Shown piece by piece: positions 3,254 to 59,790 of a DNA stretch of 64,000 nt. Source of the DNA: Thiobacillus sp. (GTDB taxonomy: Bacteria; Pseudomonadota; Gammaproteobacteria; Burkholderiales; Thiobacillaceae); NCBI GenBank assembly GCA_024708885.1, contig JANJXT010000027.1:1-64000 (forward strand), written 5' to 3'. How positions within the stretch are numbered: the stretch's first letter is position 1; each line of letters opens with the position of its first letter. The translations under genes and the position numbers were made by a program. The notes below the pieces were generated by a model. It was given only the letters and a program-made list of their open reading frames with translations. It made no database searches and was not told where the DNA came from.

Positions 3254-3970
3254 ATGTCCGACCTCATCCGTCCCAGCGGCCGCGCGCTCGATGCGCTGCG
3301 CGCCCTCTCGTTCACCCGCGGCTACACCCGACACGCCGAAGGCTCTGTGCTCGTCGCCATGGGCGATACGCGCGTGCTGTGCACGGCCAGCGTGCTGGAG
3401 AAAGTGCCGCCGCACAAGAAGGGCAGCGGCGAGGGCTGGGTCACCGCGGAATACGGCATGCTGCCGCGTTCCACGCACACCCGCACCGACCGCGAGGCGG
3501 CACGCGGCAAGCAGTCGGGACGCACGCAGGAAATCCAGCGCCTGATCGGGCGCAGCCTCAGGGCGGTGGTCGATCTGAAAAAGCTCGGCGAGCGCACGAT
3601 CCATCTCGACTGCGACGTGCTGCAGGCCGACGGCGGCACCCGTTGCGCCAGCATCTGCGGCGCGTATGTCGCACTCGCCGACGCCGTCGCCGGCTTGCTG
3701 CAAGGCGGCGCGCTTGCCGAAACACCGCTCACGGGCAGCGTGGCCGCCGTCTCGGTCGGCGTCTGGCAGGGCGTGCCGGTGCTCGACCTCGACTACACGG
3801 AAGACTGTGGCTGCGACACCGACATGAACGTGGTGATGACCGGCGCGGGCGGTATCGTCGAGGTGCAGGGCACCGCCGAAGGCGAACCCTTTTCGCGCGC
3901 GACGCTCGAAGCGCTGCTCGATCTGGCGACTGCCGGTATCGCGCAGATCACCACCGCGCAGCAAAGCTGA
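3254..3970 (+). CDS. rph: Ribonuclease PH
   Basis: A 238-residue phosphorolytic 3'-5' exoribonuclease that trims tRNA 3' ends. The start [13 protein letters not shown], the [20 protein letters not shown] stretch around residues 76-95 and the [13 protein letters not shown]-like segment with its metal-binding aspartates (around residues 180-188) are typical. Length equals the family norm. A repeat element (R1) begins 6 bases after its TGA stop and separates it from rdgB; rph-rdgB adjacency is common in Proteobacteria. Confidence 0.97.
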
Positions 3971-3976
3971 AAATGC

Positions 3977-4077
3977 AACCACAGAGACACGGAGGCACAG
4001 AGAAAAACAAGACGGACAAAGTCCGCGCAATGTTATTGATTCGGTTCTCTCCGTGTCTCTGTGCCTCTGTGGTGAAA
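3977..4077. repeat. Dispersed palindromic element R1 (short form)
   Basis: Left arm 3977-4006 and right arm 4045-4077 are inverted copies of a CACAGAGA/CACGGAGG-type octamer run, separated by about 38 bases unrelated to the other copies. The element fills the junction between the rph stop (3970) and the rdgB start (4089). AAAGG at its right end lies 9 bases before the rdgB ATG and could serve as the ribosome site. Confidence 0.9.
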
Positions 4078-4088
4078 GGTTTACCCCT

Positions 4089-30107: not shown

Positions 30108-30668
30108 TCACTCCACCGCAACGTAACGCACTTCGACGATTTCCACCTCGCGCGGGCCTTCCGGCGTGTGTACGCTGACGGTGTCGCCCTCGCGCGCTTT
30201 CATGAGTGCGCGCGCCATGGGTGAAATCCACGCGATGCGGCCGCGCGCGGCGTCGGCCTCGTCGATGCCGACGATGGCGTAGGTGGCTTCGTTGCCGCTC
30301 GCGTCGGCGACGGTGACGGTGGCGCCGAAGAACACCTGGTCGGTGGGCTCGCGCGTTGCCGGGTCGACGACCTCGGCGTGCTCCAGGCGTTTGGAGAGGA
30401 AGCGGAGCCGGCGGTCGACTTCGCGCAGGCGTTTCTTGCCGTAGATGTAGTCGCCGTTTTCCGAACGGTCGCCGTTGCTCGCGGCCCAGGCGATGGTTTC
30501 CACCAGCTTCGGCCGCTCGACTGTCCACAGCTGGTTGAATTCTGCGTTCAGGCGCGCGTAGCCGGCCGGGGTGAGGTAGTTTTTCGAACCCGCAGGCAGG
30601 GCGGGCGCGGCGATGTTGTCCACATCGTCGTCGTCGCTGTCCGATTCCTTGACGAAAGCCTTGTTCAT
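30108..30668 (-). CDS. greB: Transcription elongation factor GreB
   Basis: A 186-residue secondary-channel factor that rescues backtracked RNA polymerase. An acidic N-terminal extension (ESDSDDDDVDN) precedes the coiled coil (YLTPAGYARLNAEF, SNGDRSENGDYIYGKKRLRE, where the acidic tip residues are conserved) and the C-terminal FKBP-like domain (FGATVTVAD, ISPMARALMKAREGD). The ATG at 30668 abuts repeat R3. The acidic extension is longer than in E. coli GreB. Confidence 0.94.
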   Translation of the reverse strand: MNKAFVKESDSDDDDVDNIAAPALPAGSKNYLTPAGYARLNAEFNQLWTVERPKLVETIAWAASNGDRSENGDYIYGKKRLREVDRRLRFLSKRLEHAEVVDPATREPTDQVFFGATVTVADASGNEATYAIVGIDEADAARGRIAWISPMARALMKAREGDTVSVHTPEGPREVEIVEVRYVAVE

Positions 30669-30669
30669 C

Positions 30670-30833
30670 CTGCATTCCGCACCACGGAGACACGGAGGCA
30701 CAGAGAAACCCGAGAAACAGGGATTCTCCGCGCTTTTTCGTACTCACCCATCGGGTGAGCCCCGGAAAGAATGCAAGTCATTTTTTTACTCGCTGTTCTC
30801 TGTGTCTCTGTGGTTCAACTTGTTTTTTCCAGG
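30670..30833 (+). repeat. Dispersed palindromic element R3 (long form)
   Basis: Octamer arms near 30681-30707 and 30796-30815 enclose a core matching R2, with a perfect internal hairpin CTCACCC-ATC-GGGTGAG and AGAATGCAAG. It fills exactly the space between the DUF2905 stop (30835) and the greB start (30668) of the minus-strand operon. Confidence 0.92.
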
Positions 30834-46640: not shown

Positions 46641-47478
46641 GCAAGCCGTCCGAGATCCAGACGACCAGATCGTCGAACTCTTTTTGCCTTTCCTCTTCAC
46701 TATCGTCAGCTGGCTTGTAGGGCGAGCGGCTGACGAAATCTGTGTCGTCGTTGGTGTTTTGCTTCTCATCGTCGCTGGTCGGAACGGCAAGCGGGTTGCC
46801 GCTCACGTTGCGGGCGCCCCAGCCGTTCGGGCCATGGGACAGCAGGACCACAGGCAGATTATCGGCCACCAGGGTTGTGCAGGTGCTGTCACTACACATC
46901 ATCCACACCCGTTTAAGGTTGAGGCCGTCGTAGGGTGGAGTTCTTTCGGAGGGATTGTTTGGCAGCCCTCTCGATTTATTCGTATATTCCCGGCTTTCGA
47001 CGCTGTAGTGCAGCCGGTTTCCCCAGGCATCGTGGGGAGCGGTCCCGAGGTCGGCCCAGGGAAACCAGCCGGACGCGGCCGCGCATCGGTTGCCGTCCCG
47101 GTTTTCCCGCCCATCGTCTATCGTGTCGGGGCAGGGCAGGTAATGCCTGATGATGTAGATGTCGTTTTTCGTAGTATTCGGTTCTCCTTTCGGGGCGCAC
47201 CACGTGTCGGGGAAATTGTATGGTTCATCACATGTTGATGATGAGGAAGAAACCTTGCCTTCGTTGTCGTAAGCGCATGTGCATTTATTGGAAGTCGTGT
47301 GGCTCATCGCATAGCCGATGATCGCCTCGCGTGCCTCCTCCAGCGTCTTCTTGGTTTCCGCAATCCGCCTTGCCTGAATCTGCGCCGACAGCGGCATGGC
47401 CAGCCCGCCGATTAGCACGGTGATGATGACCAGCACGATCGCCAGTTCGATCAGGGTGAAGCCGCGCGCGCGGATCAT
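46603..47478 (-). CDS. Large pseudopilin-like protein of the MSHA-type operon
   Basis: A 291-residue protein with prepilin start MIRARGFTLIELAIVLVII and a cleavage site after Gly6. The mature part is unusually Cys-rich (pairs in NKCTCAYD, STCDEP, LPCPDT, MMCSDSTC, RVCPAGGCP), suggesting several disulphides, and contains an Asp/Asn-rich stretch (DDEKQNTNDDTDF). It may be a tip or minor pilin. The ATG overlaps the mshK stop (ATGA). Confidence 0.82.
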   Translation of the reverse strand: MIRARGFTLIELAIVLVIITVLIGGLAMPLSAQIQARRIAETKKTLEEAREAIIGYAMSHTTSNKCTCAYDNEGKVSSSSSTCDEPYNFPDTWCAPKGEPNTTKNDIYIIRHYLPCPDTIDDGRENRDGNRCAAASGWFPWADLGTAPHDAWGNRLHYSVESREYTNKSRGLPNNPSERTPPYDGLNLKRVWMMCSDSTCTTLVADNLPVVLLSHGPNGWGARNVSGNPLAVPTSDDEKQNTNDDTDFVSRSPYKPADDSEEERQKEFDDLVVWISDGLLRSRVCPAGGCP

Positions 47479-47918
47479 GGCGTCGGGCGCTCGTCGGAGG
47501 TCGGTTGCGCGGACGTCGGCGGCAACAGTTGATAGGACTCGTAGACGCTGCCGCGGGCGCGCGTCTGACCCGGCCGCAGGCTGTGCGGCGCGGCGGTGGC
47601 GGGCTTGCCGTCGACCCAGTGGGTGACCTGGCCGTCGGAGCGGATGATCACGCCGTCGTAGCGCTGCGGGGCCTCTGCGGGGCTGTGTTGCGGCGAGGAG
47701 GCGGGCGAGTGTATGCCGCGGGTGCGCGCGGCTTCGAGCTGCGCCCGCTGCGCCGGCGTATAGAACAGGCGTCCGGGATCGGTGCTTGCTGCAAAACCTG
47801 AACCACAGAGGCACAGAGACACGGAGAAAATCCAGACTGAACCGCGATGCACCATCCCGCGCTGAATGGATCTGCTGTTCTCTGTGCCTCTGTGTCTCTG
47901 TGGTGAACAGGTTTTCAT
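47475..47918 (-). CDS. mshK: MshK-like pilus accessory protein whose N-terminus is encoded by repeat R5
   Basis: A 147-residue frame that begins at ATG 47918 inside an ATGA overlap with mshJ and ends in an ATGA overlap with the next gene. Conserved-looking sequence starts at TDPGRLFYTPAQRAQLEAAR (residues 46-65), with YDGVIIRSDGQVTHWVDGK further on. The first 44 residues come from palindromic element R5, and its right half reads VWIFSVSLCLCGSGFAAS, a plausible signal peptide core. MshK is a short exported protein of MSHA assembly; the name rests on position, size and the DPxR-like mature start. Confidence 0.6.
   Translation of the reverse strand: MKTCSPQRHRGTENSRSIQRGMVHRGSVWIFSVSLCLCGSGFAASTDPGRLFYTPAQRAQLEAARTRGIHSPASSPQHSPAEAPQRYDGVIIRSDGQVTHWVDGKPATAAPHSLRPGQTRARGSVYESYQLLPPTSAQPTSDERPTP
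47793..47915. repeat. Dispersed palindromic element R5 (short form, inside mshK)
   Basis: Arms at 47801-47829 and 47877-47906 are flanked by AAAACCTG (47793-47800) and CAGGTTTT (47908-47915), so the whole unit is symmetric. It is open in the mshK frame and lies two bases after the shared mshJ stop/mshK start. Confidence 0.92.
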
Positions 47919-48514
47919 TGCAAAGTCCTTGATTCTGCCGTCACGGTGAACCACAGTATCTCGCATTCGCCCTTGAGGCGGGCCTGGTTGACGGCCTCGA
48001 AAGGCGCGTCGCCCGTCCGGGCGAGGGTGCAGCCGTGCACGCGATGAATCCCCGCTGCATGGCGTTCGAGCGCGGCGAGGAAGCGCGCGAGGTCGGTCTC
48101 GACCAGCAGCGGGAGGGTGAGCGTCATGCGGGTCTGCTTCAGCGGCAGTCCCTGAGCCAGCGCGGCCGGTGCGTCGGCACGCGGATCGAGCCGATATTCG
48201 AGTGCGGACAGGCCGCTTTCGCGACCGGCCAACTGGGCGGCTTCGATCCATGCGAGACGGTTTTCCGCGCCGACGAATCCGCGTGCGGCAAGCGCCTCGT
48301 AGTCGGCGAGGTGGGCGGCGATGAGTTCCTGCTGCTGGCGGCTGTGGCGCAGCCGGCTTTCGGCCGCGGCGCGCGCCTGTTCGGCGTGGGTGCGCGCCGC
48401 GGTCGCGGCGCGCGTCGCATCCAGGCTCCACGATATCCCGATCGCGGCAAGGAGCGCGGCCGCTGCGACCAGGGCCAGCGGCCATTTCAGCGCGGCGATG
48501 GGTGGCCGGCTCAT
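47915..48514 (-). CDS. mshJ: MshJ/PilO-like pilus assembly protein
   Basis: A 199-residue protein with one N-terminal membrane helix (PLALVAAAALLAAIGISW), a coiled coil rich in Arg/Ala/Glu (AEQARAAAESRLRHSRQQQ) and a C-terminal ferredoxin-like region. This is the layout of PilO/GspM-type alignment proteins; position between mshI and mshK supports MshJ. The start overlaps mshI (ATGA). Confidence 0.75.
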   Translation of the reverse strand: MSRPPIAALKWPLALVAAAALLAAIGISWSLDATRAATAARTHAEQARAAAESRLRHSRQQQELIAAHLADYEALAARGFVGAENRLAWIEAAQLAGRESGLSALEYRLDPRADAPAALAQGLPLKQTRMTLTLPLLVETDLARFLAALERHAAGIHRVHGCTLARTGDAPFEAVNQARLKGECEILWFTVTAESRTLQ

Positions 48515-50013
48515 GGTGCGGCCTCGCGGTATTGCATGTCGATGCTGAAGCGCACGGCCTGCGCGGTGGGGGTGCCGGCGATCTGCGTCTTGCCGGCGAG
48601 GCGTGCGGCGGGGCCGGTGTCGACCGGGCTGCTGCGCAGGCGCACCGCATGCAGGGACGGCACACGCCCGAGCACCTGCATGAAATGTTCGATGCGCTGC
48701 ATGGCGGCACGGTAATTGCCGTCGAAGGACGCGAGCGCGGCGTCGATGCGGAGGGCGGCTGTGCGGCCTGCCGGTGCGTCGTCCGCGGTCCAGTTCAGCT
48801 GCTGCAGCGTGATGCCGGGCGAGCCGTCGAAGGCCGCGCCAAGCGCGGCCATCAATGCCAGCGGGGCGGGTGCTGGACTTTCCAGTGTCCGTGCGACGCT
48901 GACGGTGAGGGCGAGCTGCTCGGGTGCGATGTCCTGGCGTGGGAAGGTGCGCGCGACGGCCTGGTAGCGCGCATCGAGCTGCCGCGCCTGGATGTCGAGC
49001 TGGTAGGTGTCGTCCTTGAGGGATTCGGCGCGGAGCCAGAGCGCGGCCGTGGTGATGAGGCCCGCCAGGGCGATGCCGCCGGCAACGGCATGCAGCGCGC
49101 GGCGCCAGCGGTATGCCACGTGTCGCTGCAACAGGGCGCTTGGCGCCAGGTTGAGCGGCAGCGTCTTGCCGGCAATGGCGGCAAGCGGCACGGTCTCGGG
49201 CGTGGCGAGCAGGAAGTCGTCCGGGATGTGCAGGGTGCGCGCGAGTTCGGCGACATCGATCCTGCGTACGCCGAATGCCGGGTCGGCCGTCAGGGCGGCA
49301 AACGCCGCGTCGAGCTGGGCGGTCGGATCGAGCAGCAGCACGTGCAGGCGCGCGTCGCGCGGAAGGATGCGCTGGCCGACGAGATAGAGCTGGGTCTTGG
49401 CGATTTCGTTGGCCGCGTCGCCCGGCAACTGCGTCGGCGCTTCGCCGGGAATCAGGCGCGAAAAGCGCAGCATGCCGTCCTGGTAGTAGGACAGACGCAG
49501 GCTGTCATGCAGGCGGCAGGCCATGAGCACGTGGGGTTCCGGCACGCGCAGGCGCGCGAGCAGGTGCTGGCAGGCGATCGCCATCGGGGTGATGCCGGCG
49601 AGCGGCACGCCTGCGCGCTGCAGCACGCCAAGCCAGGGTGCCAGCCATTCGTGATCGGTCAGCGCGGCGAAGAGATAGCGGTCGTCGCGGCGGCCCGTGG
49701 TTTCGCGCGCCTGCCGCCAGGCCCCGGCAAACTGCGCGTTGCGGAACGCCTGCTTGAGCTTGCGCGCCACCAGTGCGGCGCGGGCCGCGCCCTGTACGTG
49801 CGGCAGGATTTCGCCGCGATAATCCTCGTCGACGCTGTCGACGACGATCACGGCCGGCAGGTGGGCGAGCCGCGCGACGAGTTGCGCGAACGCGGCCATC
49901 CCGGCGGCATTCGCCGCATGCTGGCCAAGCCAGTGCAGACGCCCGGGACGGCAGTCGAGCACGCCGATATGGCGTGGCGTGGCGAGCAGGATGAGGCGGT
50001 GGTCGAGGATCAT
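48511..50013 (-). CDS. mshI: MshI-like PilM/PilN fusion protein
   Basis: A 500-residue protein. The N-terminal 310 residues resemble an actin-like PilM/GspL domain; a membrane helix (GGIALAGLITTAALWL) and a PilN-like periplasmic part follow. In MSHA systems MshI connects the ATPase and platform to the periplasmic alignment proteins. The ATG at 50013 lies 9 bases after repeat R6. Confidence 0.78.
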   Translation of the reverse strand: MILDHRLILLATPRHIGVLDCRPGRLHWLGQHAANAAGMAAFAQLVARLAHLPAVIVVDSVDEDYRGEILPHVQGAARAALVARKLKQAFRNAQFAGAWRQARETTGRRDDRYLFAALTDHEWLAPWLGVLQRAGVPLAGITPMAIACQHLLARLRVPEPHVLMACRLHDSLRLSYYQDGMLRFSRLIPGEAPTQLPGDAANEIAKTQLYLVGQRILPRDARLHVLLLDPTAQLDAAFAALTADPAFGVRRIDVAELARTLHIPDDFLLATPETVPLAAIAGKTLPLNLAPSALLQRHVAYRWRRALHAVAGGIALAGLITTAALWLRAESLKDDTYQLDIQARQLDARYQAVARTFPRQDIAPEQLALTVSVARTLESPAPAPLALMAALGAAFDGSPGITLQQLNWTADDAPAGRTAALRIDAALASFDGNYRAAMQRIEHFMQVLGRVPSLHAVRLRSSPVDTGPAARLAGKTQIAGTPTAQAVRFSIDMQYREAAP

Positions 50014-50021
50014 TTTCGGGA

Positions 50022-50258
50022 AAAACCATTAACCACAGAGACACAGAGGCACAGAGGCACAAAGAAGAAACGAGACCTTGCAGCCTGTCGAGCTAACGGG
50101 CATGGCGTCTTGCCGCCCCAGACCATGAAACGGGCTCTGCCGGTTTCCCGCTTGCGGGAGAGGGGGATACGGAATCGCTTCGCGCGTTTCACGTCAACGT
50201 CCCGGATGACAAGCTGCAAGAGGGCTCCTCTGTGCCTCTGTGTCTCTGTGGTGAGAAG
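50022..50258. repeat. Dispersed palindromic element R6 (long cargo)
   Basis: Arms at 50031-50064 and 50226-50255 enclose about 160 bases that differ from the other copies and carry a second palindrome, TCCCGC-TT-GCGGGA (50146-50159). A further short inverted pair, CTTGCAGC/GCTGCAAG, lies just inside the arms. It fills the mshG-mshI junction. Confidence 0.9.
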
Positions 50259-50269
50259 GTGTAGTTCAT
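50189..50269 (-). other. 26-codon frame from the mshG stop into R6
   Basis: An ATG in an ATGA overlap with the mshG stop opens a frame reading MNYTFSPQRHRGTEEP that enters R6 after five codons and stops within it. The same ATGA coupling joins most other genes of this operon, so this may mark the former start of a gene interrupted or replaced by R6, or simply chance. Confidence 0.3.
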
Positions 50270-51471
50270 AGCGGCAGATTCCCGATCAGGTCGTAGATCG
50301 GCAGCAGCACCGACACCAGAATGCCGCCGAGCACGAGACCGAGCAGGGCGGTGAGCGCCGGTTCCAGCACCTTGAGGCCGCTTTCGATCGAGTCGAGCAC
50401 TTCGCGGTTGTAGAAGGCCGTCACGTTGTCGAGCGCCTCGTCCAGGGCGCCCGTGGTTTCGCCCACGCGCAGCATGCGGATCACCAGCGGCGGAAACAGC
50501 GCCTGCGCCTGGAAACTCTCGGACAGGCCGCGTCCGTCGGCGATCTGTTGGGTGGCGTGATGAATGGCGCTCGCCACGGTACGGTTGTCCGCCACCGCTT
50601 CGCCGGCGCGCAGGGCATCGAGCACGGTCACGCCCGAGCGGTACATCATCGACAGTGTGCTGGCAAAGCGCGACAGCACGATCTTCTGCACGATGGGACC
50701 CACGACCGGCAGGCGCAACTGGGTGCGGTCCCACCAGACACGCCCCGCCTCGGTCCGGCGCGCCCAAAGCGGCAAGCCGACACCGAGCGCGACGCCCAGC
50801 AGCAGAAAAAACGGCCAGTACGAGCGCAACGCACCCGATACCGCCATCAGGATCAGCGTCGGCAGCGGCAGTTGCACGCCCATGGTTTTTACCAGTCCGA
50901 GCACCTGCGGCACCAGATAGACCAGCAGGAAGATGATCGCCACGCCCACCACCGCCAGCACCAGCGCCGGGTAGATCATCAGCCGCTTGGCTTTCGCGGC
51001 GACTTCCTCCTGCCACTTGAGCGTTTCCGCGAGCCTGTCGAATACCGCATCGAGCAGGTCGGTCTGTTCGCCTGCCTTGACGCTGTGCACGAACACCGCG
51101 CCGAACACCGCCGGGTGCGCCGCCAGCGCCTGCGACAGCACCTTGCCGCCTTCCAGGTCTTCCAGCAACGAGGTGAGCACGTCGCGAAAGCCGGGTTTGT
51201 CCATACTGTCGCGCAGGTCGCGCAGGCCGTCCAGCAGCGGAATGCCGGCGCGCGTGATGTAGCCCATGTGGATGCAGAACGTGATGAGGTCGCGCCGCGT
51301 CACGCGTTCGCGGCCGCGCGGAGCGTACTGGCGCGACAGCTCCGCGAGCGTGACGAGGTCGAGCCCCATGCGCTTCAGCCGCAGTTCGAGATCGACGTCG
51401 TTGACCGCCGACAGCGTGCCTTTGACGCTGCGGCCGGTTTGATCGATGGCGCGGTAGTCGAAGAAAGGCAT
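50266..51471 (-). CDS. mshG: MshG/PilC-type pilus inner-membrane platform protein
   Basis: A 401-residue type II secretion F-family protein with three membrane segments and two copies of the GspF domain (around residues 68-190 and 270-395). Motifs FCIHMGYITRAGIPLLDGL and LSRFASTLSMMYRSGVTVL are typical. It is the membrane platform contacted by the MshE ATPase. The ATG at 51471 is preferred, with conserved PFFDYRAIDQTGR following at once. No normal ribosome site precedes it; R7 abuts the start. Confidence 0.92.
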   Translation of the reverse strand: MPFFDYRAIDQTGRSVKGTLSAVNDVDLELRLKRMGLDLVTLAELSRQYAPRGRERVTRRDLITFCIHMGYITRAGIPLLDGLRDLRDSMDKPGFRDVLTSLLEDLEGGKVLSQALAAHPAVFGAVFVHSVKAGEQTDLLDAVFDRLAETLKWQEEVAAKAKRLMIYPALVLAVVGVAIIFLLVYLVPQVLGLVKTMGVQLPLPTLILMAVSGALRSYWPFFLLLGVALGVGLPLWARRTEAGRVWWDRTQLRLPVVGPIVQKIVLSRFASTLSMMYRSGVTVLDALRAGEAVADNRTVASAIHHATQQIADGRGLSESFQAQALFPPLVIRMLRVGETTGALDEALDNVTAFYNREVLDSIESGLKVLEPALTALLGLVLGGILVSVLLPIYDLIGNLPL

Positions 51472-51473
51472 GA

Positions 51474-51816
51474 AACCGCTAACCACAGAGGCACAGAGAC
51501 ACAGAGAAAATCATAGTTTGATTCTCCGGATGCCGTTCTTGAGTGCGGACACGTTGAAATTGAGCAATAGGCCGGTGTGTAATCCAGTCAGTTTCAGATA
51601 GGTCAGCAATTGCGCTTCGTGCACGGGCAAGAGCTGCTCTGCTGCTTTGAGTTCGAGTATCAATTGTGATTCCACCAGGATGTCCATGCGATAACCGCAA
51701 TCGAGCTGAATGCCTTTGTAATGCACGGTGCACTTCGATTGCTGCGCCAATCACGGCATTGGATAAGGGATCTCTCTGTGTCTCTGTGTCTCTGTGTCTC
51801 TGTGGTGAATGGTTTT
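51474..51816. repeat. Dispersed palindromic element R7 carrying a GxxExxY gene remnant
   Basis: Arms at 51481-51510 and 51771-51810 enclose 260 bases that are nearly all coding remnant of a GxxExxY-family gene. The remnant's stop codon directly touches one arm. The right arm has four octamer units, more than other copies. It fills the mshE-mshG junction. Confidence 0.92.
51511..51772 (-). pseudogene. GxxExxY-family (PD-(D/E)XK nuclease-fold) gene, internally deleted
   Basis: The first frame gives [16 protein letters not shown], the family N-terminus. The sequence then jumps into another frame that reads [18 protein letters not shown] and continues [20 protein letters not shown] to a normal end at GIRRIKL. 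About 40-50 residues that normally lie between (GPGLLE and following) are missing. The break sits at a short GTGCA direct repeat, so a slippage deletion is likely. The retained Asp and Glu-Leu-Lys are the predicted nuclease residues of the family. It is not functional as read. Confidence 0.85.
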
Positions 51817-51829
51817 GTGGTTCATGGTT

Positions 51830-53527
51830 TCACACTCGTCCCGTCAAATCCACCACCCGCGCCACCTCCGCCAGCGAGGTCGAGCCGTCCAACACGCGCT
51901 GCACGCCGTCTTCCGCGAGCGGGCGATAGCCGTGTGCGAGCGCGGCGCGGCGAATGTCGGGCAGCGGCGCGTGGTTGGCGACGAGTTCGTCGAGTTCGGG
52001 GCCCATGCGCAGGAGTTCGATCAGCGCGAGCCGTCCCCTGTAACCCTTGTGAGCGCACGCCGGGCAGCCGGCGGGGCGGTAGACGGTGGGCGGCTGAGCG
52101 GGGTCGGTGCCGAGAATGTGCGCCTCGTTCTCGTCGGGCGTGTAGGCTTCGCGGCAGTGCGGACACAGTTTGCGCACCAGGCGCTGGGCGACGACGCCGA
52201 TGATGTTGCCCGAAAGAATGCCGGGCTGGATGCCGATGTCGGTCAGGCGCGGGAACACCCCCAGCGCGGAATTGGTGTGCAGGGTGGTGAACACCTGATG
52301 GCCGGTCATGGCGGCGCGGAAGGCCATTTCTGCGGTGTCCTTGTCGCGGATTTCGCCGACCAGGATGATGTCGGGGTCCTGCCGCATGATCGAGCGGATG
52401 CCGTTGGCGAAGTCGAGCTTCAAGGTCTCGTTGACCGAACTCTGGCGCATCAGCGTGACCGGGTATTCGACCGGGTCCTCCAGCGTCATGATGTTGACCG
52501 TCTCGTTGTTCAGATGCGAGAGCATCGAATACAGCGTGGTGGTTTTGCCCGATCCCGTCGGGCCGGTGACGACGAGGATGCCTTCGGGACGCGCCATCAT
52601 CAGTTGCAGTTCGCGCAGCGCGTCGGCGGTGAAGCCCATCTGCTCCAGCGGCATGATGGATTTTTCGCGGTCGAGGATGCGCAGCACCAGGTTTTCGCCA
52701 TGGATGCCGGGCTGGCTGGAGACGCGAAAGTCGATCGGGCGGCCGTTCAGCATGAGCGACATGCGGCCGTCCTGCGCCGCGCGCGTTTCCGCGATGTTCA
52801 TGCCCGACAGCACCTTCAGTCGCACCAGAATGCCCGGCCAGTAGGTCTTGTGCAGGCTGCGGATCTGCTCCAGCACGCCGTCGATGCGGTAGCGGATGCG
52901 CAGGAAGGCGTGCTCGGGCTCGAAATGGATGTCGGACGCCTCGCGCTTCACGGCGTCGGTCAAGAGCGCGCCCACCAGCCGCACCACGGGCTGCGTGTAT
53001 TCCTCGGTGTCGGGGCTCAGGCTCGCGTAGTCGACTTCGCCGGTTTCGATCTCGCGCAGGATGCCGTCGAGCGACAGGTCGAAGCCGTAGAACTTGTCGA
53101 TGCACTCCAGGAGCTGCGCCTCGCCGGCGAGCAGGGTGTCGATTTCCAGCTGGCCGCCGAGCGCGGCTTTCAGCTGGTCGAGCGCGACGACGTTGAACAT
53201 GTCGGTGGTCGCCAGCGTCAGCACGTTGCGCGCGGCGTCGTGCGCGATCGGCAACAGATGGTGGCGCCGTGCGAAGTCCTCGGGCACGCGCTGCAAGGCG
53301 TCGGGGTCGGCCACCACCTGAGCGAGGTCGATACCCTGGCTGCCGAGCGCGTTGGCGAGCTGGTCGCGCAGCACCGCCTCGGTCATGAAGCCCAGCGCGA
53401 CGAGCTGGCGGCCGATGGGAAGCCCCGTGGCTTTCTGTTCCTTGAGACCGATGCGCAACTGGTCGACGGTGATGAGACCCTGCGCGACCAGGGTCTCGCC
53501 CATGCGCAGTTTCTTGCGGCGCTCCAT
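51830..53527 (-). CDS. mshE: MSHA pilus extension ATPase MshE
   Basis: A 565-residue GspE/PilB-type hexameric ATPase. The N-terminal MshEN region (LRMGETLVAQGLITVDQL, then GRQLVALGFMTEAVL) matches the c-di-GMP-binding motif known from Vibrio cholerae MshE. Walker A is GPTGSGKTTTLYSML, the Asp box and Walker B include DPDIILVGEIRD, and a tetra-Cys zinc site is formed by CPHC and CPAC. Pilus extension is therefore probably regulated by c-di-GMP. The ATG at 53527 is eight bases after AAGGG of repeat R8. Confidence 0.94.
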   Translation of the reverse strand: MERRKKLRMGETLVAQGLITVDQLRIGLKEQKATGLPIGRQLVALGFMTEAVLRDQLANALGSQGIDLAQVVADPDALQRVPEDFARRHHLLPIAHDAARNVLTLATTDMFNVVALDQLKAALGGQLEIDTLLAGEAQLLECIDKFYGFDLSLDGILREIETGEVDYASLSPDTEEYTQPVVRLVGALLTDAVKREASDIHFEPEHAFLRIRYRIDGVLEQIRSLHKTYWPGILVRLKVLSGMNIAETRAAQDGRMSLMLNGRPIDFRVSSQPGIHGENLVLRILDREKSIMPLEQMGFTADALRELQLMMARPEGILVVTGPTGSGKTTTLYSMLSHLNNETVNIMTLEDPVEYPVTLMRQSSVNETLKLDFANGIRSIMRQDPDIILVGEIRDKDTAEMAFRAAMTGHQVFTTLHTNSALGVFPRLTDIGIQPGILSGNIIGVVAQRLVRKLCPHCREAYTPDENEAHILGTDPAQPPTVYRPAGCPACAHKGYRGRLALIELLRMGPELDELVANHAPLPDIRRAALAHGYRPLAEDGVQRVLDGSTSLAEVARVVDLTGRV

Positions 53528-53530
53528 GTT

Positions 53531-53624
53531 AAAAACCCTTGACCACAGAGGCACGGAGGCACGGAGAAAACCCTGACCCGGGTGGTGTCCTCTGTGCCTC
53601 TGTGTCTCTGTGGTGAGCGGTTTT
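53531..53624. repeat. Dispersed palindromic element R8 (shortest form)
   Basis: Arms at 53541-53570 and 53587-53614 are separated by only about 16 bases, so the unit is nearly pure palindrome. Its outer end reads TGAAAACC, where TGA is the mshN stop; the other end is three bases from the mshE ATG. Confidence 0.92.
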
Positions 53625-54733
53625 CATCGCAGTGTTTCAAGTTGCCGCACGCGTGTTTCGGCCTGGGTACGGTCGAAACGGTGTGCGCCGCCGGCGCCAA
53701 GGGCCTTTTCGTAATAGGTCAGCGCCGCGGCGTGCTCGCGCAACTGGTCGAGACTGACCGCGAGGTTGTAGGCATAGTCGGCATTGTCCGGCGCGCCGCG
53801 CCAGGCATCGAAATAGGCCGCCTGTGCCTCGCGCCAGCGGCCCTGTTCGGCGTACAGGTTGGCGAGCGTCTGGTGGAGCTGTGGACTGGGCTCGCGCTCG
53901 ATGAGCATCTTCAGCCGACTCTCGGTCGCGGCAGCGTCGGTGTTGCCGACGAGGTCGAACAGCGCGGCCTGCGCGGCGGCGTTGCGCGGATCGAGTGCGA
54001 GCACCTCGCGATACAGGCCTTGCGCCTCGGCGTCGCGGTTCTGCAGCGCGGCGATCGCCGCCAGCCCCAGCAGGGCATCTGTGCCAGGCTGACGTGCTTG
54101 CGCCTCGGTATACAGGCGCTGCGCTTCGGCCAGCGCGCCGCGCTGGTAGGCGGCCCAGGCCTGCGCGAGCAGGGTGGTGTGCGCGTCGGGCTGGAACTGG
54201 GGCAGCGGGCGTGCCGTGGGGGCCGGATGATCCCGCGCTGCCGGGGGCACGCGCGGCGGTGGCGGCGGCGTGGCCACGGCGGCGAACGCTGAACGTACTG
54301 GTGTGCGCACAGGCGGTGTCGCGGCAGGCCGTGGCGGCGCGGGCGCTGCGGATTCGAGCGGGGCGGCTGGGGGAGATGCTGCGACGCTTGCTGCCGGCAC
54401 GGGAAGTTCGGCCGGCGCGGCGGCTGTCGGCGTCGGCAGGGCGGCGGGCGGTTGCAGGGAAAAATACAGCCAGGCGCCATAGCCCAGCGCGATCAGCGCG
54501 GCGAGCAGCAGGGTCGCCGGCACCAGCGACAGACGCGGCCAGCGCAGCCCCTGCCGGTGCGCATCCCCCGCCGCGGTGTTGCCGAACAGCAGGCTTGGCG
54601 GCTCGACCCATCCGCGCCCGCGTACGCCGTCGTCGGCCAGCGGCTGGAGCTCCAGGTCGTCGTCGCGCGTCGCGCGACGCGTGTCGGCCGGGGCCGACTC
54701 GGCCTGCTTCAGGGCCTTGAGCAGCAGGCTCAC
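53624..54733 (-). CDS. mshN: MshN-like membrane-anchored TPR protein
   Basis: A 369-residue protein starting at GTG 54733 (MSLLLKALKQAE). One membrane helix (about residues 65-88) is followed by a Pro/Ala-rich linker and at least four TPR units in the periplasm (AWAAYQRGALAEAQRLY, LLGLAAIAALQNRDAEAQGLY, LANLYAEQGRWREAQAAYF, YNLAVSLDQLREHAAAL). It resembles MshN and PilF-like assembly proteins. It is coupled through a 20-codon frame to mshL. Confidence 0.82.
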   Translation of the reverse strand: MSLLLKALKQAESAPADTRRATRDDDLELQPLADDGVRGRGWVEPPSLLFGNTAAGDAHRQGLRWPRLSLVPATLLLAALIALGYGAWLYFSLQPPAALPTPTAAAPAELPVPAASVAASPPAAPLESAAPAPPRPAATPPVRTPVRSAFAAVATPPPPPRVPPAARDHPAPTARPLPQFQPDAHTTLLAQAWAAYQRGALAEAQRLYTEAQARQPGTDALLGLAAIAALQNRDAEAQGLYREVLALDPRNAAAQAALFDLVGNTDAAATESRLKMLIEREPSPQLHQTLANLYAEQGRWREAQAAYFDAWRGAPDNADYAYNLAVSLDQLREHAAALTYYEKALGAGGAHRFDRTQAETRVRQLETLR

Positions 54734-54792
54734 CGCAGGCTCCGCGAATGGGCCGCGATCACGGCGCGCTCCGCGCGTTGGGCCAAATTCAT
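54730..54792 (-). other. 20-codon coupling frame between mshL and mshN
   Basis: An ATG overlapping the mshL stop (ATGA) opens MNLAQRAERAVIAAHSRSLR, and its TGA overlaps the mshN GTG (GTGA). Both junctions are in phase for ribosome re-initiation. The DNA around both ends carries a duplicated GGCGCGCTCCGCGCG, which may have created it. It could carry ribosomes from mshL to mshN or encode a small peptide. Confidence 0.4.
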
Positions 54793-56540
54793 GGCGCGCT
54801 CCGCGCGCTCGGCAGCAGGCGCTGGAACTGGCGCAGCTCCTCGCTTTCCAGCGTCGGATTGGCGACGACGATGGGGCGCAGGAACACGACCAGCTCGGTC
54901 TGGCTGTTGATGCGTTCATGCTGGCCGAATACCGCGCCGACGCCTTCGGGACGCGACAGGCCGGGCAGGCCGTCGCGCGCGTTGTTGCTGTCGTCCTGGA
55001 TCAGACCTCCGAGCACCACGGTCTGGCCGCTTTGCACCTGCAACAGCGACTCCATTTCGCGTACCTGGATCACCGGCACCTGGTTTGGAATGGCGGCCGG
55101 AATGGCGGGGTTGGGGTCGCGCACGAAGCCGACGTTGCGCGAAATTGTCGGCCTCACCGTCAGCGACACCAGGCCGGCCTCGTTGATCTGCGGTGTCATG
55201 GTCATGACGATGCCGACCGGCACGGTTTGCGGCGTGGTGGTGAAGGTGGTCGTGGTGCCCACGTTGGCGGTCGAGGTGGTGTCGGCCTTGACCGTGAAAT
55301 ACACCAGGTTGTCGACCACTTTCAGCAAGGCCGTCTGGTTGTTCAAGGCCATCAGCTTCGGGCTGGACAGCACCTTGGTGTTGCCGAAGGACTCCAGCAG
55401 GTCGATGGCGGCGGTGATGCCGTTGCTCCCTGTGTAGGTTGCGGTCATGAAAGGTTGCAGTGCGTCGGCCAGCGCGCTTTCCCCACCGCGGCTCGCGGTG
55501 TTGATCGACCAGCCGACGGCACCCTGCAGCGTGCGCGTCCAGTCGATGCCGGCGCGATACTGATTTTTGAGCGTGACTTCGACGATGGTCGCCTCGATCA
55601 ATACCTGACGCTGCGCCGATTGCATCACGCGGTCGAGGTAGTGCTGCACCAGCTCCTGCTGGCGCGCGGTGCCGAGCACGGTGACGGTGCCGGCGACCGG
55701 ATTGACCGCGACGTCGTATTTGGCGTCCACCGCGGGCTGGCTGGCAAAGGCCGCGGTGAACAGGCTGGCCGCGCCGGTGCCGGCCTTGCTGGCCGCCTCG
55801 GCCTGCGAGACGCGCTCGGCGCGCGCGGCCTTCTCGGCCTCGATCCGGGCGGCGCGCTCTTCGCTGCTCTGCGTCACGGCGCGGGTGCCGGCGAGGATGG
55901 TGCGGATGTTGTCGGCGAGTACGGCCCACAGGTCGTTGTTCGACTGGCTGGCCACCGTGGTGGTCGAGGAGTTGCCGCTGCCACTGCTGCTCGTGGTGCT
56001 GCTGCCTGCCGTGGAAGCCACGGCGCCGCCGGTACTGGCGATCTGCGCCGCCACGCCGACGCTCGAGGTGGTATTGCGCGCGACGTTGACGTAATTGACC
56101 GTATACGTCTTGACGTAGGGCGTATCCGGCATGACCGACACGGTGCGTCCGTTCATTTCATAGCGCAGGTTGGCCTGCCGTGCGATGCGGTCGAGGATCG
56201 CCGGCAGCGGTTCCTGTACGGCGTTCAGCGAAACCTTGCCGGAAATGCCGGGATAGAGGTCGATGTTGTACTGGGTGTCGCGTGCGATGGAAAACAGCAG
56301 GTCCTTCACCGGCACGTCGTTGACCACCACGGTGTAGGTCGGGACCGGGGCGGCCGGCTTCGGCGCCGGCAGTGCCGGGGCGGCGCGCACCGGCGCGGGG
56401 GGCGGCGGCAGCGTATCCGCGGCGGGGCGGATGATGTGGCCGGGCGAGGTGTCGAAGGCCTGCGGCGGCACGCAGCCGGCCAGCAACAGGCTGGCCAGGA
56501 CCAGGGCGGTCGATGCAGAGCGGCTCAACACGATATTCAT
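54789..56540 (-). CDS. mshL: MshL secretin (outer-membrane pilus channel)
   Basis: A 583-residue lipoprotein (lipobox LLAGC) with an STN domain (VVVNDVPVKDLLFSIARDTQ), a Ser-rich insertion with runs of Ser and Thr near residues 188-206, and the secretin core: VEATIVEVTL-like segment, GAVGWSINT, ELVVFLRP and VQSGQTVVLGGLIQ. It forms the outer-membrane ring for the pilus. The ATG at 56540 touches repeat R9 with no spacer. Confidence 0.92.
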   Translation of the reverse strand: MNIVLSRSASTALVLASLLLAGCVPPQAFDTSPGHIIRPAADTLPPPPAPVRAAPALPAPKPAAPVPTYTVVVNDVPVKDLLFSIARDTQYNIDLYPGISGKVSLNAVQEPLPAILDRIARQANLRYEMNGRTVSVMPDTPYVKTYTVNYVNVARNTTSSVGVAAQIASTGGAVASTAGSSTTSSSGSGNSSTTTVASQSNNDLWAVLADNIRTILAGTRAVTQSSEERAARIEAEKAARAERVSQAEAASKAGTGAASLFTAAFASQPAVDAKYDVAVNPVAGTVTVLGTARQQELVQHYLDRVMQSAQRQVLIEATIVEVTLKNQYRAGIDWTRTLQGAVGWSINTASRGGESALADALQPFMTATYTGSNGITAAIDLLESFGNTKVLSSPKLMALNNQTALLKVVDNLVYFTVKADTTSTANVGTTTTFTTTPQTVPVGIVMTMTPQINEAGLVSLTVRPTISRNVGFVRDPNPAIPAAIPNQVPVIQVREMESLLQVQSGQTVVLGGLIQDDSNNARDGLPGLSRPEGVGAVFGQHERINSQTELVVFLRPIVVANPTLESEELRQFQRLLPSARSAP

Positions 56541-56705
56541 CCAGGAAAAACCCGTTGACCCACAGAGACACAGAGAACGGCGAGCAAGAACATGCGCTTG
56601 CATTCCTTCCGCAGTTCACCCGACGGCTGAGTGGGGACCAGCGCGGAGAATCCCTGTTTTCCGGGGTTCTCTGCGCCTCTGTGTCTCTGTGGTGCGGAAT
56701 GCAAG
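56541..56705 (-). repeat. Dispersed palindromic element R9 (long form, inverted)
   Basis: Matches R4, and R2/R3 in inverse, including GCATTCC and an internal hairpin TTCACCC-GAC-GGCTGAG. Arms lie near 56559-56576 and 56666-56693. It occupies the entire gap between the mshM stop (56707) and the mshL ATG (56540). Confidence 0.92.
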
Positions 56706-56706
56706 G

Positions 56707-58035
56707 TCATGGCTGTTCAGTGGGCAAGACAACGGTGCGCATTCTCCCGACCGTGCGCAAAAACGGTTCCTCCGTGACCCCCGCGGGCAGGTTCTGCAAT
56801 GCAGCGAGCGCTGCGGCCCGATCCGGGAATTCGCCCGTCACGAACATCCACGCGGGGCTTCCCCGGCTGAGGCCGTAGAACACGCGCACCGGCGGCGGCA
56901 GCGTCTGGTCAAGGTCCTCCAATAAAACGGCCGCGCCGGCGGCTTCTTTAGCCGTGGCCACCTGGATCACGTGTGTCGTCGTCGGGGCGTCGGCCAGCCA
57001 CGCGCCCGTCTGCCGGACGCGAAGCTCGAGTTCGGCGGCGGGGGTGGGCCGGGACGCCACGGCTTGCGGGGCGGGCAGCGGGTGTGCCGGGGGCGGCGGA
57101 GCGGGTGGCTGGGTCGGCGCGAGGCCCTCCCAGGCAAGGTAGCCCACCAACGCGAGCACGGCCGCCAGGCCCGCCCCCATCCCCAGCCGCGCACCGCGCG
57201 CTACGCCGCGCCGCGATGCCGGGCGGGCTGCACTGGCCATTTCGGCGTCGCCGGCGGCGGCGTCGAGGTGCGCCGGCGTGAGCGTATGGGTCTGTCCCGC
57301 GTAGGCGGCGAGGAGGGTCTTGTCGGCAAGTATGTTGATGCGGCGCGACAGGCCGCCGGACAGCCGCGCCATGCGCGCGACCAGCGCGGGCGTGAACAGG
57401 TCCGGGCCGCGATAGCCGGCCACGTTCAGGCGCGCGCGCAGATAGTCGCCGACTTCGGCTTCGTCGAGCGGCGACAGCCCAAGGCTCAGGGTGATGCGGT
57501 CCTTGAGCTGGCGGATGCGCGGGTCGGCGAGCAGCGCGTCGAGTTCGGGCTGGCCGAACAGCACGATCTGCAGGAGCTTGTCGGTCGCGGTTTCGAGGTT
57601 GGTGAGCAGGCGCAGGAATTCGAGATTGTCGAGCGCGATGCCCTGGGCCTCCTCGACGAACACCACCACGCGGCGCCCCGCCCGGTGGCGCGCCAGCAGC
57701 ACGGCGTCGAGCTGGGCGAGGCGCGCCTGGCGGCCGTCGACGGGCGCCTCGCCGAGGTCGGCGAGAATCGCCGCCAGCATGTCGTCCGGCCCGAGGGTGG
57801 GATTGCCAAGGTAGACGCTGTCGACGGTATCCGGCAGTTGCGCGACCAGCTTGCGGCACAGCATGGTCTTGCCGCTGCCGACTTCGCCCACCACCTTGAT
57901 GATGCCCTCGCCCTGGCCGATGGCGTAAAGCAGCGCGGCGAGCATGTCGCCACGCTGCCCCCCGGCATGCCAGTATTCGGTGTTCGGCGTGATGCGGAAG
58001 GGCGCTTCTTTGAGGCCGAAAAAATCGAAATACAC
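56707..58035 (-). CDS. mshM: MshM/ExeA-like AAA ATPase with C-terminal SPOR-like domain
   Basis: A 442-residue protein starting at GTG 58035. An AAA+ domain (residues 1-265) has Walker A GEVGSGKTMLCRKL and Walker B VVVFVEEAQ. A membrane helix (about 285-302), a Pro-rich linker and a C-terminal region like a peptidoglycan-binding SPOR domain (THVIQVATAKEAAGA) follow. ExeA/GspA-type ATPases assemble secretins through the cell wall; MshM has the same role in MSHA systems. R10 lies about 27 bases upstream. Confidence 0.87.
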   Translation of the reverse strand: MYFDFFGLKEAPFRITPNTEYWHAGGQRGDMLAALLYAIGQGEGIIKVVGEVGSGKTMLCRKLVAQLPDTVDSVYLGNPTLGPDDMLAAILADLGEAPVDGRQARLAQLDAVLLARHRAGRRVVVFVEEAQGIALDNLEFLRLLTNLETATDKLLQIVLFGQPELDALLADPRIRQLKDRITLSLGLSPLDEAEVGDYLRARLNVAGYRGPDLFTPALVARMARLSGGLSRRINILADKTLLAAYAGQTHTLTPAHLDAAAGDAEMASAARPASRRGVARGARLGMGAGLAAVLALVGYLAWEGLAPTQPPAPPPPAHPLPAPQAVASRPTPAAELELRVRQTGAWLADAPTTTHVIQVATAKEAAGAAVLLEDLDQTLPPPVRVFYGLSRGSPAWMFVTGEFPDRAAALAALQNLPAGVTEEPFLRTVGRMRTVVLPTEQP

Positions 58036-58061
58036 TGGAGGCGCTTTATCCCGAAGAATGC

Positions 58062-58199
58062 AGTTTGAACCACGGAGACACGGAGAAGATCGAAAAACAT
58101 TACGTCACATGCTTTCCTTGATTCATCCGATGGGTGGGAGCGGTTTTGGCAATAAGGTCTTGTCGTCTCCTCGTCTCTGTGTCTCTGCGGTGAGGAATT
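58062..58199. repeat. Dispersed palindromic element R10
   Basis: Shorter arms (58068-58088 and 58165-58193) enclose about 75 bases partly like the long-form core (GATTCATCC-GAT-GGGTGGG). It is the most diverged copy and sits between the response regulator stop (58205) and mshM. Confidence 0.85.
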
Positions 58200-58204
58200 G
58201 AGAT

Positions 58205-59635
58205 TCAGTCGGTTCCGTAGGTCTGCATGCGGCTGTACAGCGTGGTGCGGTTGATTCCGAGGAGCTTGGACGCCTGCGACAGGTTGCCGTGGGTCATGTT
58301 GAGCGCGGCTTCGACGTAGGCTTTTTCCCACTGGCGCAGGGTGACGTCGAGGTTGAAGTTGGCGAGCGTCTGCAGCTGCTTGCGCGCGAGCTCGATCAGC
58401 GCCTTGCTGTCGCTGGCGAGCGGGATTTCCTGGGGAAAGGCCTGGTCGGTATCGAGTTCGGCTTCGAGCTGCTGCGCATTGACCGCCACGCCCGGGTACT
58501 TGGTGGTGAGCCGAATGGCGATGTTGCGCAATTCACGCACGTTGCCGGGGAAATGGTAATCCTCCCACATCTGGCTGGCGCGCGTGTCGAGGGTGAAAGA
58601 CTGGCTCTTCGCCTCGCGCGCGTAGAAATCGCGGAAGTAGTCGAGCAGCACCGTCTTGTCCTCGCCCATGTCGCGCAGCGGCGGCACGGTGATGGAGAAC
58701 ACCGACAGCCGGTGATAGAGGTCGGCGCGGAAACGGCCCGCCTTGATTTCGGCGCGCAGGTCGCGGTTGGTGGCGGTGACCACGCGCGCGTTGGAAAAGC
58801 GCGGCTGGGTTTCGCCGACGCGCTGGTATTCGCCGTTTTCCAGCACGCGCAAAAGCTTGGCCTGCAATTCCAGCGGCAATTCGCCGATTTCGTCGAGAAA
58901 CAGGGTGCCGTTCTCGGCTTCCTCGAAATAGCCGGCGCGGGCGCTGGTGGCGCCGGTGAACGCGCCCTTGGCGTAGCCGAACAGGGTCGGCTCGACCAGA
59001 GTCGGCGAGATCGCCGCGCAGTTGAGCGCGAGGTAAGGCTTGCTTGCGCGCGGCGACAGCTGGTGCAGGCTGGAGGCGACGCGCTCCTTGCCGCTGCCGG
59101 ATTCGCCTTCGATCAGCACCGGGAAGGGTGCCGCGGCGTACTGCTTGATCTGCTCGCGCAGCTTGTGCATGGCCGGGCTGTTGCCAATGATGCCGGTATC
59201 GCGCGCCGGGGCGGGCGCCTTGTCGGCGGTGCGTTCGGCGTCCTGCACCATCAGGGCGTTGAGCAGCAGCGATTTCAGGCGCTCCGGCTCGCAGGGCTTG
59301 GCGACGAAGTCGATCGCGCCCAGCGCGCGCGCGTGGCGCGCGTTGGCTTCGTCGCTCTGGCCGGACAGAACCAGGATCTTGATGTTGGGGGAAATGCCGA
59401 GGAGGTCGGCGATGAGCGCGAAGCCCTCGTCGGGCTTGTGCGGCTGCGGCGGCAGGCCGAGGTCCACCAGGGCGAGCTGCGGCGGTTCGTCGAGCTGCAT
59501 CAGCAGACTCTTGACCTGCGCGCGCGACTCCGCGGCGGAAATCTCGAAATCCTTGCCGAGAACGTAGGTCAGGGTGTCGGAAATCAGCGGATCGTCGTCG
59601 ACGATCAGCAGGCTGGGTTTATCGGTTGGGACCAC
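58205..59635 (-). CDS. Sigma-54-dependent response regulator (NtrC/PrsR-like)
   Basis: A 476-residue activator. The receiver domain has the acidic pocket LIVDDDP and phospho-acceptor Asp in LVDLGLPP, and Lys in AKPCEPE. The AAA+ domain has Walker A GESGSGKE, the sigma-54-contact loop GAFTGA, Walker [10 protein letters not shown], and a C-terminal Fis-type helix-turn-helix ([16 protein letters not shown]). It resembles PrsR-type regulators. GTG start with GGAGG ten bases upstream. It heads the pilus operon and its likely partner kinase is at 44892-46640. Confidence 0.9.
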
Positions 59636-59720
59636 TTTATCTTTTCCTCCGCGCGCAGGAACCCGGCCCGTGTCTGTGCTTCAAGCAGCAACAGGCGCCG
59701 GGCGTGTCGGGTTTTCGACG

Positions 59721-59749
59721 ATTGTGCCAGAGCGGCGCTGAAAGTGAAA
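59721..59749 (-). promoter_or_regulatory. Candidate promoter of the response regulator/pilus operon
   Basis: On the minus strand TTTCAC (59749-59744) and CACAAT (59726-59721) stand 17 bases apart, each matching four of six vegetative consensus bases. Start would be about 80 bases before the GTG of the regulator. Confidence 0.4.
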
Positions 59750-59769
59750 CCGGGCCGTTGCGGCCCGGT
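59749..59769 (-). terminator. Hairpin terminator after the gene at 59791
   Basis: ACCGGGCC and GGCCCGGT are a perfect 8-bp stem with a 5-base loop, followed on the minus strand by TTCACTTTC. It is 22 bases past the stop of the upstream gene and separates it from the regulator operon. The T-run is weak. Confidence 0.55.
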
Positions 59770-59790
59770 CCGGCTGCGGCGCGGCGGCGG

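Follow-up and report, generated by a model that had tools for sequence, protein, structure and literature searches.

A GxxExxY gene between mirror-image repeats: a probable new kind of selfish element lodged between operon genes

Why should a broken GxxExxY gene lie between two mirror-image runs of octamers, in the gap between two genes of a Thiobacillus genome? The locus occupies positions 51,474 to 51,816 of the window, by which we mean the whole stretch of 64,000 nucleotides that was analysed. The original prediction was that gene and arms belong together, that the protein is of the PD-(D/E)XK nuclease superfamily, and that gene-bearing and short cargo-less copies form an autonomous/non-autonomous pair. 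The element and its two neighbours have the following features.

51473..51507, plus strand: arm 3' of the GxxExxY remnant, AAACC..AACCACAGAGGCACAGAGACACAGAGA, inverted-repeat pair I1
51511..51750, minus strand: GxxExxY / PDDEXK_3 gene remnant, in-frame C-terminal two thirds (TIGR04256, PF13366)
51773..51815, minus strand: arm 5' of the remnant, four perfect octamers plus an outer end pairing with 51473 onwards
51830..53554, minus strand: upstream gene, GspE/PilB-type ATPase (TIGR02533, 505 bits, under the equivalog cut-off of 630)
50266..51471, minus strand: downstream gene, GspF/PilC-type inner membrane protein (TIGR02120, 312 bits, under the equivalog cut-off of 424)

Analysis of this region confirmed that inverted CACAGAG arms enclose a GxxExxY remnant (51511-51750, minus strand) at a gspE|gspF-type junction. 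The arms pair over 35 nt each (51473-51507 with 51781-51815, 89% complementary), and their octamers stand in tandem at 51484-51507 in one arm and, as a perfect array, at 51773-51804 in the other. The ORF between them, of 79 aa, scored 92.1 bits against TIGR04256 (GxxExxY, cut-off 35) and 89.2 bits against PF13366 (PDDEXK_3, cut-off 22), and spans positions 42-115 of the 116 in the TIGR04256 profile. Its translation retains the Asp and the Glu-Leu-Lys, as had been claimed. The N-terminal third, including the GxxExxY signature, is absent from the frame, and a short stretch resembling the start of such a protein sits in a different frame. The window copy is a remnant, with 358 nt from the upstream stop (51830) to the downstream start (51471), compared with 436 nt in the congener L258; it is a dead gene within arms that are still recognisable. 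A gap of 3 nt separates the remnant's stop from the inner edge of the nearer arm, as close as the prediction had it; the first in-frame start codon lies ~22 nt from the other arm, a distance for which "abuts" is a loose word. Both neighbours and the remnant are on the minus strand, with the stop of the GspE/PilB-type gene just ahead of the element and the start of the GspF/PilC-type gene (MPFFDYRAI) at 51471, right after it. The remnant is the sole GxxExxY match in the host genome, a 2.56-Mb MAG judged 84% complete, and an Rfam search of window positions 46000-60000 gave no match.

Copies without a gene were found elsewhere in the window.

50019..50266, no strand assigned: arm pair without cargo, in the gap that follows downstream, octamer cluster FFFRR
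53529..53628, no strand assigned: arm pair without cargo where the gspE-type ORF has its 5' end, octamer cluster FFRR; the mechanical ORF start overlaps the pair
47789..47918, no strand assigned: cargo-less arm pair, octamer cluster FFRR
3965..4087, no strand assigned: cargo-less arm pair, octamer cluster FFRR
58056..58205, no strand assigned: cargo-less arm pair, octamer cluster FR
56546..56707, plus strand: cargo-less copy with conserved core; the core, 56577-56666, served as query
30668..30828, minus strand: cargo-less copy with conserved core in reverse orientation, 79% identity
24236..24346, minus strand: core copy, octamers detected on one side only, 82.5% identity
36792..36893, plus strand: core copy, octamers detected on one side only, 76% identity

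The host genome contains 163 matches to CACRGAGNCACRGAG, and a core of ~89 nt is common to 26 places in the available stretches, a number that includes the query copy and one 26-nt partial match; identity in the remaining places is 73-87%. Four arm pairs (47789-47918, 50019-50266, 51469-51820, and 53529-53628) sit in or at successive gene boundaries of one pilus/secretion-type cluster.

We asked whether intact GxxExxY genes elsewhere lie within such arms. The genes came from an order sample of 200 genomes, 31 of which have a GxxExxY match (two of them weak), from the phylum, and from a set of named loci, which are the 80 top-ranking of at least 578 confirmed matches; by their record titles, the named loci come from upwards of twelve phyla, with two archaeal loci among them, and, having been picked with one peptide pattern, they are skewed toward the main subfamily. 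The claim that intact genes carry CACAGAG-type arms stands only if "arms" denotes the architecture. Taken literally it fails, since not one of the other 29 order loci had the exact CACRGAGNCACRGAG arm. Inverted arms built from different short units, with a score of at least 20 (a threshold that, like the octamer pattern, arm patterns A and B, and the subfamily regular expression used below, was chosen after data inspection), were present in 24/29 order loci, 18/30 phylum loci, and 55/78 named loci, compared with 13/328 and 47/674 shifted control windows of the same loci, which are themselves able to catch neighbouring arms. A CRCRRAG octamer occurred at least twice on each side, inverted, in 59 of the 78 usable named loci and in 2/664 control windows, and at least one of these two tests was positive in 63/78 named loci versus 48/664 controls. 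Both were negative in the other 15, of which 13 have at least two octamers on one side. Over all usable loci, the window copy included, octamer arms were present on both sides in 102/156 versus 1/501 controls; left out of these counts were L060, a weak non-member, and loci with less than 60 nt of flank (3/159 of all loci, 2/80 of the named loci), and the loci counted are not independent, as there are shared sites, paralogues, and related genomes among them and the flanks of L069 and L187 are identical. An arm pairing score of at least 20 was reached by a locus's own arms in 112/156 cases and by the arms of other loci in 183/2340. Of the archaeal loci, L154 passes the arm test and L141 fails it.

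Taken on its own, the window copy is compatible with a chance or local artefact in which an unrelated pseudogene just happens to lie between the arms. For the family overall, the control windows contradict this reading, and the congeners G577, G578, and G621 each have, at this same gspE|gspF junction, a GxxExxY gene bounded by CACAGAG arms, so that we consider coincidence extremely improbable.

The relation of arm and reading frame varies among loci. The frame is open across the entire left arm in 56/106 loci, and 44/106 have an in-frame ATG within or ahead of that arm. The original prediction also mentioned N termini that look translated from an octamer run; these were found in part of the loci (MNRRDAEAQRENQ, MNHGDTEAQRQKLNE, and MNDLPQRTQGTQRLNE are examples), not in all.

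The assignment of the protein to the PD-(D/E)XK superfamily was borne out by its D..ExK residues and modelled fold order. Across 23 proteins obtained by profile search, E22, D62, E72, and K74 do not vary. D61 and K73 are likewise invariant among the 76 named proteins, where E71 is present in at least 90% and the first Glu is fixed by the search pattern; sequences with internal stops (L129, L161, L180, and L196) were excluded from alignment A2. An AlphaFold2 model (pLDDT 96) predicts the order alpha-alpha-beta-beta-beta-alpha-beta, and in this model GxxExxY has the alpha-beta-beta-beta-alpha-beta core with D..ExK by which the superfamily is recognised. When the model was compared with the PDB by Foldseek, there was no match at E < 0.001; the top matches were Cas4 SSO0001, AddAB, AdnAB, and LHK-Exo, which we take to be PD-(D/E)XK enzymes. 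A weak match (E 0.34) was to the PD-(D/E)XK homing endonuclease I-Bth0305I (3r3p), which has the same superfamily fold; unlike it, GxxExxY is bounded by inverted arms and accompanied by many gene-less copies, and informal inspection showed no intron or intein. A profile search for a solved GxxExxY structure found none and gave one unrelated-looking match at E 0.19. Kinship with the Holliday-junction resolvase Hjc was also considered and set aside, as no such name is among the 50 Foldseek matches listed.

The sites at which the elements lie were compared among related genomes. The trpD|trpC region was recovered from 21 of 23 genomes of another genus, in a different class of the same phylum. An insert of 451-610 nt is present in 14 of the 21, and the GxxExxY signature is readable in 13 of these. 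The site is empty in four, where trpD and trpC overlap by ATGA with nothing between; two others have spacers of 27 and 23 nt, and in one, where the gene called on the left is a different one, a cargo-less arm pair precedes trpC. ATGA is found on both sides in 8 of the 14 filled copies, at positions where stop and start codons are constrained. The arms of a trpD|trpC copy match each other better than they match those at other loci (mean 22.2 versus 17.1, permutation p = 5e-5), with the left arm finding its best partner in its own right arm in only 3/14 loci. The trpD|trpC and ribF|ileS junctions are also filled in distant families, with different arms (L032, L036, L038, L049, L264, and L265; L035, L037, L042, L050, L056, L072, and L089); the names of junction genes were profile-confirmed for L032, L072, and L088 and assigned by eye for the others. 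Repeated insertion or a target preference is a possible explanation for these distant copies.

Among 20 gspE|gspF loci of the window's genus, in five of which the upstream ORF called was not gspE, there are two GxxExxY elements (the window and L258), with further ones in G578 and G621. In L244, L249, and L256 there are arm pairs without cargo, TCAGGGGTCAGGATTCAGG-like and of the four-helix type described below. As this junction holds both GxxExxY and four-helix-type arm pairs, different armed elements share one intercistronic site. Other loci have spacers of 2, 20, and 25 nt, or of 83 and 106 nt without recognisable arms. A third inverted-repeat element, with ends like CTTTCTTTTGCTTCGCCAAAAGAAAGTAACC, was seen at gspE|gspF in L243, L251, L252, L253, and L261; the four copies with a measured gap are 583-614 nt. 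The empty, filled, and cargo-less states of trpD|trpC and gspE|gspF make gain and loss measurable. When the L122 protein was used as a query, it matched 7 of 72,556 plasmid records and none of 50,697 phage records.

Comparison of the arms with the proteins that they enclose showed that arm grammar goes with protein subfamily. In the GFLE-type subfamily (GFLEKVY or a close variant), the arm units end in T or A (CACGAATGAA, CGCAGATGAA), and CRCRRA(T/A)-like arms were found at 19/20 loci and CRCRRAG arms at 0/20. The 136 loci of the main subfamily comprise 98 with CRCRRAG arms, 8 with the other kind, and 30 with neither or ambiguous ones; L057, a fragment without the diagnostic stretch, is included here with the main subfamily, and its genome is included as GFLE-type in the copy-number count. 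The best repeat period is 10 in 11/17 GFLE-type loci and 8 or 9 in 51/105 loci of the main subfamily, in which 42/105 have no clear period. The same association holds within single genomes: in G152, G145, G036, and G169, different paralogues have different arms, and in genomes holding both subfamilies each of the two arm types is found around the gene to which it belongs. A finer correlation between protein and arm is weak (rho 0.20, p = 0.001, 117 loci) and falls short of significance when only the 62 named loci are taken (rho 0.10, p = 0.058). Joint inheritance of gene and arms would yield part of this covariation without recognition.

The abundance of arms was also related to the gene, as had been predicted. 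In the order sample, the median number of A-type arms was 22 in 29 gene-bearing genomes and 0 in the 171 others (p = 9e-12), with the weakly matching genomes G041 and G029 treated as gene-less, and the median number of B-type arms was 41.5 in 8 GFLE-subfamily genomes and 0 in the 192 others (p = 5e-20). The association of arm abundance with the gene remained when genomes were stratified by family (p = 5e-5). Exceptions are 11 order genomes that have at least nine A-arm matches but no gene scoring above the cut-off; likewise, no GFLE-type gene was seen in G131 (16 B matches) or G022 (12 B matches). In the window's genus (56 genomes), the gene is present in nine, and all eight besides the host have inverted arms; gene-bearing and gene-less congeners differ in arm matches (p = 0.008). 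The four genomes of the genus with a CACRGAG-armed gene, all at gspE|gspF, have 330, 180, 54, and 22 matches (p = 2.9e-4 versus the other 52 genomes), and the five gene-bearing congeners with other arms have 0 to 15. The genus has its own gene-less exceptions in G589 (100 matches), G597, and G582. Despite such arm-rich gene-less genomes, the relation holds both across the order and within the genus, and the gene-arm unit and its tie to arm abundance are well supported. At the start of contig C10 of G578 (bases 2-152) there are ~19 unbroken CACAGAGG octamers, a run far longer than a normal arm.

The arm-rich genomes without the gene would also be expected if GxxExxY were a passenger with another job, such as DNA repair or defence, in arm-bounded DNA that another enzyme spreads. 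The different inverted-repeat elements at gspE|gspF and the unrelated four-helix genes in arms of the same design point the same way. A passenger of a foreign enzyme should not, however, predict arm class by subfamily, within genomes too, or the abundance of B arms, which among gene-bearing genomes are far commoner with the GFLE subfamily (p = 6e-6). A slight B excess in genomes with the other subfamily only (p = 0.025, median 0) weakens this objection somewhat, and we hold a passenger role to be quite unlikely.

The arms might be maintained as DNA or as RNA. In an RNA-level element, they would pair in the mRNA with the gene in the loop, RNase III or looping would hide the insert from the operon, much as in the intervening sequences (IVS) of 23S rRNA, which encode the four-helix S23 protein, and the protein would be secondary. 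Consistent with this, gene-bearing copies are co-directional with their neighbours on 117/126 called sides (112 loci; 98 sides uncalled). The cargo-less core copies, however, are mixed in orientation relative to neighbouring genes (6/12 called sides; p = 3.7e-4 for the difference), so the bias may only mirror the gene's need for read-through. Four-helix (S23/IVP) genes in this order are laid out in much the same way, the units being 7 nt long, and the Coxiella IVS, as described in the portion of PMC4990558 used here, has tandem heptamers before its S23 ORF and undergoes RNase III excision. An RNA stem under selection should favour G-U mismatches; on the sense strand of 105 loci, the arm mismatches were 89 G-U and 88 A-C. 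This lack of a G-U excess indirectly favours maintenance of the arms as DNA rather than as an RNA stem, with the qualification that young insertions would likewise be without bias. In addition, none of the 80 named loci has an rRNA context, which an IVS would lead one to expect. We regard an RNA-level element as unlikely.

The gene-arm unit, the arm grammar tied to subfamily, the arm abundance tied to the gene, the empty and filled sites, and the dispersal of cargo-less copies were all obtained directly. Together, a gene in mirror-image repeats and many gene-less copies suggest a new sort of selfish DNA element between operon genes. By analogy, we think it probable that GxxExxY is a compact putative PD-(D/E)XK nuclease in a selfish element that works like REP/RAYT. 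In this proposal, the GxxExxY gene and its two inverted arms would be one element of ~450-600 bp at the stop/start junction of co-directional genes. The gene would be read in the direction of its neighbours and in part of the loci would start at or inside the left arm, making its N terminus a translated repeat. Short copies with arms and a non-coding core would be the non-autonomous partners of the gene-bearing element. The protein would recognise, at the DNA level, the repeated units in arms of its own type and would cut at them, and host repair or replication would then copy the element, with or without its gene, to new intercistronic sites. We infer the nuclease activity, the recognition of arms, the copying step, and the moving of cargo-less copies. 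The predicted autonomous/non-autonomous pair is thus favoured by the gene-arm unit and the copy-number link, and the action of the protein on the arms is its inferred part.

RAYTs are REP-associated tyrosine transposases, relatives of IS200/IS605. In the parts of PMC3686654 drawn on here, the abundance of a REP class tracks its cognate gene, some repeat-rich genomes are without the gene, and the case for REP/RAYT is argued from evidence of a similar kind, with cleavage demonstrated. In the same way, the GxxExxY gene is flanked by its own repeat class, has many gene-less copies, and tracks repeat abundance with exceptions; both systems also occupy the core portion of genomes. The differences lie in the enzyme (PD-(D/E)XK for GxxExxY, the gene of the window element, and a Y1/HUH tyrosine transposase for RAYT), in the repeats (runs of 8-10-nt units around the gene, unlike the tetranucleotide plus palindrome of REP), and in the position of gene-bearing GxxExxY copies, in sense between co-directional genes. 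The elements resemble IS/MITE pairs in their inverted ends, their gene-bearing and cargo-less forms, and a cargo-less family with a conserved core. They differ in that the window element holds a GxxExxY remnant only and no transposase, in that the ends are highly variable, and in that an informal comparison noticed no kinship between core and gene and there is no proven target-site duplication. The proposed element would give a testable function to a family that merely has a name taken from its motif and a likely owner to dispersed octamer repeats, with protein subfamily, repeat grammar, and repeat abundance linked much as RAYT was to REP. If the nuclease acts on the arms, this would be mobilisation without a transposase and entry into operons without gene disruption.

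A search of one collection of open-access papers for six arm strings did not find them, and no paper on such arms with the gene was among the matches listed. GxxExxY is named in PMC8934634 (in a passage not on arms) and PMC12085832, and PF13366 in PMC9756366.

Other small ORFs have arms of comparable design. The 23S rRNA IVS (S23/IVP, TIGR02436, PF05635) is like the GxxExxY elements in having a small ORF within an inverted repeat, and the Coxiella 23S IVS, in the portion of PMC4990558 cited above, encloses such an ORF in a long inverted repeat whose 5' end has heptamers in tandem. GxxExxY differs from S23 in fold and unit length, and the window element lies at a gspE|gspF-type junction, not in an rRNA gene. 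We entertain, as somewhat doubtful, the wider view that GxxExxY elements are a widespread and hitherto undescribed class of selfish element in bacteria and archaea, with a lone PD-(D/E)XK nuclease that stands in for the transposase and recognises its own arms of tandem units, and that they belong to a superclass of armed ORFs at the translational junctions of operons that takes in S23, with the rRNA IVS as a special case. Xanthomonas GGGAATC heptamers are described in PMC4692102, in the part consulted, as G-quadruplex-forming repeats, mostly intergenic and in tandem, of which Xcc has 70 inverted pairs and Xac 75; its main text mentions neither S23 nor GxxExxY. These repeats may be cargo-less forms of the four-helix type. 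Analysis of 30 TIGR02436 four-helix loci from the order sample (L091-L120) showed inverted arms with a score of at least 20 in 16. Since GxxExxY and four-helix genes both lie in arms, armed small ORFs seem to make up a wider class, in which no fewer than two unrelated proteins are represented. Many of the four-helix arms consist of 7-nt units (GTGAGGAGTGAGG, TCAGGGGTCAGG, and GTGACGGGTGACA), and the best period was 7 or 14 in 14/19 loci.
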